From Beutenbergia cavernae DSM 12333 (lineage in GTDB: Bacteria; Actinomycetota; Actinomycetes; Actinomycetales; Beutenbergiaceae), in NCBI RefSeq assembly GCF_000023105.1, contig NC_012669.1, positions 2,481,025-2,545,024 of the forward strand: 64,000 bases of DNA, given 5' to 3'. A model generated the notes under the pieces. That model was not told the origin of the DNA. It ran no database searches and was given only the letters and a program-made list of their open reading frames with translations. Below, piece by piece: positions 4,494 to 62,159 of this stretch. The stretch's first letter is position 1. Each line of letters starts with the position of its first letter. The translations under genes and the position numbers were made by a program.

Positions 4494-5156
4494 TCAGCTG
4501 GGTGAGCCGCCCGCACCCACCTGCTCGATGACGGCGTCCGCCACCTCACGCATCGTCAGCCGGCGGTCCATCGACGTCTTCTGGATCCACCGGAACGACT
4601 CGGGCTCCGTGAGGCCCATCTTCGTCATGAGGAGCCCCTTCGCGCGGTCCACCCGCTTGCGGGTCTCGAACCGCTCGGCGAGGTCGGCGACCTCGGACTC
4701 GAGCGCCACGATCTCGGAGTGCCGGTGCAGGGCGATCTCGATCGCGGGCAGCAGGTCGGCCTGCGTGAAGGGCTTGACGACGTACGCCATCGCGCCGGCG
4801 TCGCGCGCCCTCTCGACCAGCTCGGTCTGGGAGAACGCCGTCAGGAGCACCACCGGGGCGATGCGGTCCTTGCCGATGCGCTCGGCGGCGGAGATCCCGT
4901 CGAGGACGGGCATCTTCACGTCCATCACGACGAGGTCGGGCTTGAGGTCGGTGGCCAGCTGGACGGCGGTCTCGCCGTCGCCCGCCTCGCCGACGACGTC
5001 GAACCCGGCCTCGGTCAGGGTCTCGACGACATCGAGGCGGATCAGAGCCTCGTCCTCGGCGACGACGACGCGCCGGCCGCGGCCGATGCCGTCGGCCTGG
5101 GTCCCACCTGAGGTCTCGCTGTCTTCTGCGGGGGTCTGCGTCTCGTCCGTGCTCAC
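4494..5156 (-). CDS. pdtaR: ANTAR-domain response regulator, PdtaR-like
   Basis: A 220-residue two-domain protein. A receiver domain (residues about 28-140) carries the acidic pair in AEDEA, the phosphoryl acceptor Asp79 in VMDVKMP, and the conserved Lys128 in YVVKPF. It is followed by an ANTAR RNA-binding domain (about 145-210) with the hallmark RAKGLLMTKMGLTEPESF. ANTAR proteins act as antiterminators on paired RNA hairpins; the mycobacterial PdtaR works with the histidine kinase PdtaS. No kinase gene is adjacent, so the partner must lie elsewhere. The first 27 residues are acidic and poorly conserved. The GTG start at 5156 lies six bases after a TAGGCT element, consistent with a leaderless mRNA. 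Confidence 0.92.
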   Translation of the reverse strand: MSTDETQTPAEDSETSGGTQADGIGRGRRVVVAEDEALIRLDVVETLTEAGFDVVGEAGDGETAVQLATDLKPDLVVMDVKMPVLDGISAAERIGKDRIAPVVLLTAFSQTELVERARDAGAMAYVVKPFTQADLLPAIEIALHRHSEIVALESEVADLAERFETRKRVDRAKGLLMTKMGLTEPESFRWIQKTSMDRRLTMREVADAVIEQVGAGGSPS

Positions 5157-5160
5157 GGCG

Positions 5161-5169
5161 TTAGCCTAG
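5161..5169. promoter_or_regulatory. symmetric -10 element shared by pdtaR and tRNA-Leu
   Basis: The core TAGCCTA (5162-5168) reads TAGCCT on the + strand, toward the tRNA gene at 5180, and TAGGCT on the - strand, six bases before the GTG of pdtaR. One near-palindromic element can thus serve divergent promoters with start points roughly 18 bases apart. Assignment is by pattern only. Confidence 0.5.
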
Positions 5170-5179
5170 TGCTTCGTCC

Positions 5180-5253
5180 GCCCCGATAGCCCAACTGGCA
5201 GAGGCAGTCGGCTCAAACCCGGCACAGTGTGGGTTCGAATCCCACTCGGGGCA
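5180..5253 (+). tRNA. tRNA-Leu (anticodon CAA) with a short, class I variable loop
   Basis: A 74-base cloverleaf. The 7-bp acceptor stem pairs GCCCCGA with TCGGGGC. The D-arm has AACTGGCAGA in the loop. The anticodon stem is GTCGG/CCGGC with loop CTCAAAC, giving CAA at 5214-5216. The variable loop has only five bases (ACAGT). The T-arm is GTGGG-TTCGAAT-CCCAC and the discriminator is A. CCA is not encoded. CAA should read the rare Leu codon UUG. Bacterial tRNA-Leu normally has a long variable arm; this one does not. The D-loop and discriminator A are Leu-like, so charging with Leu is plausible but not proven. Confidence 0.85.
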
Positions 5254-5280
5254 CCGCGCGCGCTCAGGACCGTCGCGCCG

Positions 5281-62071: not shown

Positions 62072-62159
62072 GTCCGGGTGGCGGAATTGGCAGACGCGCT
62101 AGCTTGAGGTGCTAGTGCCCGTATAGGGCGTGGGGGTTCAAGTCCCCCCTCGGACACCA
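62072..62159 (+). tRNA. tRNA-Leu (anticodon GAG)
   Basis: A class II cloverleaf with encoded CCA (62157-62159). Acceptor GTCCGGG pairs with CTCGGAC (one G-U pair); the D-arm contains GGAATTGGCAGA; the anticodon stem CTAGC/GCTAG holds loop TTGAGGT with GAG at 62106-62108; a long variable arm (TGCCCGTATAGGGCG) and a GGGGG-TTCAAGT-CCCCC T-arm follow. It reads CUC/CUU Leu codons. A strong hairpin terminates it. Confidence 0.97.

Follow-up and report, generated by a model that had tools for sequence, protein, structure and literature searches.

How can a tRNA gene of Beutenbergia cavernae have a leucine anticodon but only five nucleotides in its variable loop? A long arm is expected at this site in bacterial tRNA-Leu. 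The preliminary description of the window, the whole stretch of 64,000 nucleotides that was analysed, offered a specialised UUG reader, a non-translational role, or charging with an unexpected amino acid. The explanation favored here, which is very probably correct, is that the gene encodes a functional UUG-reading tRNA-Leu, in which a short-armed (class I) form has replaced the long-armed (class II) form, and which is charged by a standard leucyl-tRNA synthetase (LeuRS) without the arm.

Structure of the gene and the tRNA set of the genome

The gene, its parts and a comparison gene are located as follows.

5180-5253, + strand: tRNA-Leu(CAA), class I, with an intact body (positions 1-73) of 74 nt and a 5-nt variable loop (ARAGORN, RF00005, parse and fold)
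5193-5201, + strand: D-loop AACTGGCAG, with A14, A15, G18, G19 and A20a (parse; E. coli leucine determinants as given in the relevant passages of PMC9976931)
5214-5216, + strand: anticodon CAA, C34A35A36 (ARAGORN, position 35 of the gene)
5224-5228, + strand: variable loop ACAGT (ACAGU in the RNA), 5 nt, with U48 opposite A15 (RF00005 and parse)
5253, + strand: discriminator A73 (parse)
62072-62156, + strand: tRNA-Leu(GAG), class II, for comparison (ARAGORN and RF00005)

ARAGORN places tRNA-Leu(CAA) at 5180-5255. The Rfam covariance model RF00005, a general rather than an isotype-specific tRNA model, matches 5180-5253 over its full length, with 55.0 bits (gathering threshold 29) and an E value of 4.2e-9, which rules out a chance match. 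The acceptor stem has 7 base pairs, and the D stem has 3 together with a C13*A22 mismatch. The D-loop of the RNA is AACUGGCAG, and the anticodon and T loops are CUCAAAC and UUCGAAU, respectively. The minimum free energy fold nearly reproduces the cloverleaf (z -2.19), with 6 of 200 shuffled sequences equally stable. All the stems are intact. The variable loop is shorter than the arm of at least 10 nt that defines class II, while tRNA-Leu(GAG) is long-armed. The preliminary description was accurate on both of these genes, including the CAA anticodon, the leucine-like D-loop, A73 and the reading of UUG. Its statement that CCA is not encoded holds for the final A, but CC directly follows A73 (5254-5255).

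There are 45 tRNA matches in the genome (4.67 Mb, one contig), which were typed with ARAGORN together with the GAG gene of the window. The class II tRNAs are four tRNA-Ser, tRNA-Tyr, and the GAG, UAG and CAG forms of tRNA-Leu. The class I leucine tRNAs are UAA (G000:C1:1174457-1174530) and CAA. These two are the only UUR readers of the genome and both are short, whereas the three CUN readers are all long. No second CAA gene, long-armed or other, is present among the typed tRNAs. Within the genome, the tRNA most similar to tRNA-Leu(CAA) is Leu(UAA), identical at 60 of 74 positions, followed by Met (57) and Arg(UCU) (54), with Phe at 51. UUG would be decoded by Watson-Crick pairing with C34. A specialised UUG reader is therefore correct as to the codon but not as to the specialisation, as the UUA reader, other genomes and phages share the same architecture.

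Charging of the tRNA and the amino acid at UUG

The passages on tRNALeu in PMC9976931 report that E. coli LeuRS needs A73, A15-U48, G18G19 and A20a, and does not need the variable arm. All of these determinants, as well as a leucine-codon anticodon, are present in tRNA-Leu(CAA). The same elements are probably used in B. cavernae, where the standard LeuRS would recognise A73 and the D-loop and tertiary core (A14, A15-U48, G18G19, A20a). With charging through A73 and the core, the long arm would be dispensable.

Two LeuRS genes score above the family cut-off in the genome, with 39% sequence identity to each other.

G000:C1:1977247-1980063, + strand: LeuRS1, a 1007-residue open frame with HVGH and KMGKS (L230)
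G000:C1:4521750-4524233, - strand: LeuRS2, 846 aa, with HMGH and AMSKS (L231)

LeuRS1 is matched by solved bacterial LeuRS structures, among them 2byt and 4aq7, which we take to be LeuRS-tRNA complexes. The presence of LeuRS2 counts against a standard LeuRS as the charging enzyme, and a division of labour is possible in this organism. The low identity and the different motifs of the two enzymes would suit a LeuRS2 that is dedicated to the class I UUR tRNAs, but this is very unlikely in view of the other genomes. Only one LeuRS locus is found in 34 of 39 genomes (counted by hand with the present genome included, and with G001 and G035 among the 34 being fragmentary assemblies), and in 30 of the 34 a class I leucine tRNA was typed (G026, G030, G033 and G037 are untyped). 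A second LeuRS is thus not needed, and in those genomes one enzyme must serve both tRNA shapes, unless a LeuRS outside the model was missed. Moreover, the LeuRS2 type shares 57-58% identity with the enzyme that is the sole LeuRS of G006 and G007, and either type by itself can be found together with class I tRNAs (type A in G004, type B in G007). Two LeuRS genes are also found in 4 of the 38 other genomes (G012, G020, G022 and G023). The two types are in tandem in G012.

Another amino acid could in principle be attached to this tRNA, making UUG recoded or ambiguous. The nearest candidate is phenylalanine, with A35, A36 and A73 in common, and the class I shape would fit it. Open frames were aligned to relatives, with a GC3 filter on the frames. 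UUG is rare, as had been described, with 40 of 1379 leucine codons in 40 aligned open frames. Leucine accounts for 150 of the 206 residues aligned to these codons. After relatives that also use UUR are dropped, 75 of 131 residues are leucine, followed by Phe (22), Val (10), Arg (8) and Met (6). Phenylalanine is therefore the commonest other residue, but the leucine share is similar to that of the CUG control with CUG users dropped (916 of 1684), which disfavors non-leucine charging. Of 19 strongly conserved UUG columns, 17 are leucine (Phe 1, Val 1), and by sequence the gene is closer to Leu(UAA) than to tRNA-Phe. The alignments indicate that UUG is read as leucine in this genome. Charging with another amino acid, phenylalanine included, is highly improbable, and the earlier suggestion of an unexpected amino acid is not borne out. 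No UUA codon passed the filters, and a looser run with only 3 UUA codons gave 5 aligned residues, 1 of them leucine.

The pdtaR locus and the distribution of the short form

Two features lie directly upstream of tRNA-Leu(CAA).

4494-5156, - strand: pdtaR-like response regulator, divergent from the tRNA, the syntenic anchor (receiver-domain families; the name pdtaR is from the preliminary description)
5162-5167, + strand: -10-like TAGCCT, symmetrical, 12 nt before the tRNA (upstream comparison; putative function)

At about 12 nt upstream, 6 of the 7 rows shown have TAGCCT and 1 has TAGCGT (genera g1, g5, g6, g9 and g10). This conservation in five genera was counted in favor of a functional tRNA, which is probably transcribed. 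The pdtaR frame starts with GTG, just 23 bp from the tRNA (5156-5180). The symmetrical TAGCCTA between the two genes may serve both divergent promoters.

The comparison of the locus that the preliminary description had proposed is informative. pdtaR is present at every CAA locus fetched from the same family, class I or class II, and at most other CAA loci, including those in genomes of other orders. The CAA gene is conserved beside pdtaR in many families, in either arm form. This position, the status of the gene as one of two sole UUR readers and the leucine at UUG argue against a non-translational role. On the other hand, pdtaR was not found beside UAA genes among the UAA loci examined, at the distant-family class II loci L090, L094, L097, L099, L104, L105 and L117, or at the short class I locus L119. 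Mapped onto a tree of 52 pdtaR proteins, the arm class must switch at least 9 times, with 4 of these changes forced by well-supported branches, so that one form repeatedly replaced the other at this locus.

It is also highly improbable that the gene is a decayed copy, or a foreign one from a prophage, with no role: similar class I leucine tRNAs are borne by phages, but every stem is intact, this is the sole CAA gene of the genome with no intact duplicate elsewhere, its site adjoining pdtaR is kept in relatives of many families, and the gene stands single, outside any phage, prophage or tRNA array.

BLAST with tRNA-Leu(CAA) gives matches in 39 of 39 genomes (the present one included, E up to 0.001), that in G026 spanning 27 nt only. 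The family was surveyed in 22 genomes at least 95% complete, again including the present one, with a pattern that accepts either arm length. The CAA gene is class I in 15 of them, class II in 7 and both in none. The 7 class II genomes all belong to genus g7. The UAA gene is class I in the 20 family genomes with a pattern match, and ARAGORN finds a class I UAA gene in G005 and G009 as well. In genus g7 (L176-L183), the class II CAA gene is in the opposite orientation relative to pdtaR. GCCCCG is common to it and the B. cavernae class I gene in 8 of 8 genomes, and in 6 of these the complete 17-nt anticodon arm is shared, which makes a chimera or conversion possible.

At larger scales, one fixed class I pattern has matches in 64 of 298 genomes of Actinomycetota and 2 of 299 of Pseudomonadota, both counts being lower bounds because the pattern misses variants. 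The two Pseudomonadota matches are the centre genome, picked for having one, and one that is not tRNA-like. A scan of genome contigs, using a pattern from which C2-bearing acceptor stems are excluded, finds at least 118 stretches with a class I leucine tRNA pattern: at least 92 in Actinomycetota, 12 in Planctomycetota, 8 in Pseudomonadota, 2 in Acidobacteriota, 1 in Thermodesulfobacteriota, 1 in Saccharimonadota and 2 unplaced. The tRNA-Leu(UAA) of a Saccharibacteria assembly (L280) is identical to an Acidimicrobiia copy (L292), and its contig is probably mis-binned. Hosts among the matches listed include Micromonospora, Salinispora, Actinoplanes, Glycomyces, Paracoccus sediminis and Rhodobacter sp. 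KR11. Mixed pairs of both kinds, class I UAA with class II CAA and the reverse, occur among the listed matches of the class (78 genomes) and the phylum (296 genomes). Among the genes found, Paracoccus and Rhodobacter pair a class I UAA gene with a class II CAA gene, and Glycomyces artemisiae and Micromonospora phaseoli show the reverse, with UAA of class II and CAA of class I. For 6 of the 11 genomes of family f19 (G060, G140, G159, G258, G311 and G321), no UAA or CAA match is among those listed with a pattern in which GGNAG is required in the D-loop and TTCGA in the T loop. Changes in one of these loops may be present in their UUR leucine tRNAs. Overall, many actinobacteria appear to have a class I tRNA-Leu(UUR) in place of the class II one.

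Many class I leucine tRNAs are also among the matches listed for viral contigs, and they are borne by phages of Mycobacterium and E. coli. Escherichia phage wV8 (L035) encodes a tRNA-Leu(CAA) of class I and a tRNA-Leu(UAA) that is probably of class I too. The leucine tRNAs of E. coli itself are class II.

The class I core and comparison with known systems

Core signatures were counted among distinct copies from L001-L195 (81 class I, 36 class II), with phage loci and rows of fewer than 19 paired positions left out. Bases 9, 12, 13, 22, 23 and 73 were not imposed by the search patterns of this set. The loci from the genome-contig and viral-contig scans were kept out because those patterns fix bases 8, 9, 14, 15, 18, 19, 20a, 21-23 and 47-48. 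A73 is found in 81 of 81 class I and 36 of 36 class II copies. A15-U48 is found in 80 of 81 and 35 of 36, with A15 partly imposed, as some rows came from patterns imposing G18G19, A20a and G21, one of them also A14 and A15. The pair 12-23 is C-G in all 81 class I and G-C in all 36 class II copies. At base 9, 74 of 81 class I copies have A and 36 of 36 class II copies have G, and 13*22 is C*A in all 81 class I copies. Such a uniform core identifies the class I tRNAs as a coherent remodelled type and not decayed genes. The core has probably been rebuilt to fit the short loop, by replacing G12-C23 with C12-G23 and, in most copies, G9 with A9.

The common core (pair 12-23, base 9 and loop NCAGU) by itself suggests a single origin of the class I body. 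In the acceptor and T arms, however, the mean identity of class I CAA to class I UAA (0.786) is close to that to class II CAA (0.784) and class II UAA (0.807). Outside the core, class I CAA is therefore no closer to class I UAA, and besides a single origin, convergence or exchange of the central part alone is possible. A more speculative and rather doubtful idea is that the short-armed body is swapped between phages and bacteria, repeatedly ousting long UUR tRNAs, as it would evade host or phage defence toxins and nucleases that grip the arm or the class II core.

The 2023 review PMC9976931, in its passages on tRNALeu, gives a long arm everywhere except in animal mitochondria. The genomes with a short UUR tRNA-Leu contradict this rule. 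Among the open-access PMC titles, abstracts and passages searched, including the relevant passages of PMC8450103, PMC7609411, PMC6297222, PMC12803027 and PMC9437257, no description was found of bacteria whose chromosomal UUR reader is a class I tRNA-Leu. Related hints are found in the pertinent passages of two other papers: PMC11541572 lists M. tuberculosis tRNALeu-2, 3 and 5 with long loops, implying short loops in the others, and the global tree of PMC2474678 marks some leucine tRNAs as short-armed.

The surprise is the breadth of the short form rather than this gene alone. In whole lineages, UUR leucine codons depend on short tRNAs and CUN codons on long ones, mostly with one LeuRS. This provides a natural test of whether LeuRS can do without the arm, as claimed from in vitro work, and cautions against discarding short-armed leucine genes as mis-annotated. 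Compact leucine tRNAs, including those of phages, are also material for studying tRNA-targeting defence.

tRNA-Leu(CAA) resembles the bacterial class II tRNA-Leu in its anticodon, A73, A14, A15-U48, G18G19, A20a and mismatched 13*22, and in its locus beside pdtaR in other genomes. It differs in the pair 12-23 and base 9, and in having 5 nt in the loop, against the 13-15 nt of the parsed class II CAA copies. The animal mitochondrial tRNA-Leu, as treated in PMC9976931, also has a short loop and is charged by LeuRS through A73 and A14. There, however, LeuRS also contacts the anticodon stem of a floppy transcript, in contrast to the GC-rich bacterial cloverleaf here. The tRNA-Leu(UAG) of a mycobacterial tRNA cluster, described in part of PMC6582537, is likewise a short-loop form from an actinobacterium. 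That tRNA belongs to an extra cluster and is redundant with a normal long-arm isoacceptor, whereas tRNA-Leu(CAA) is a single-copy chromosomal gene without a long-arm CAA or UAA partner.
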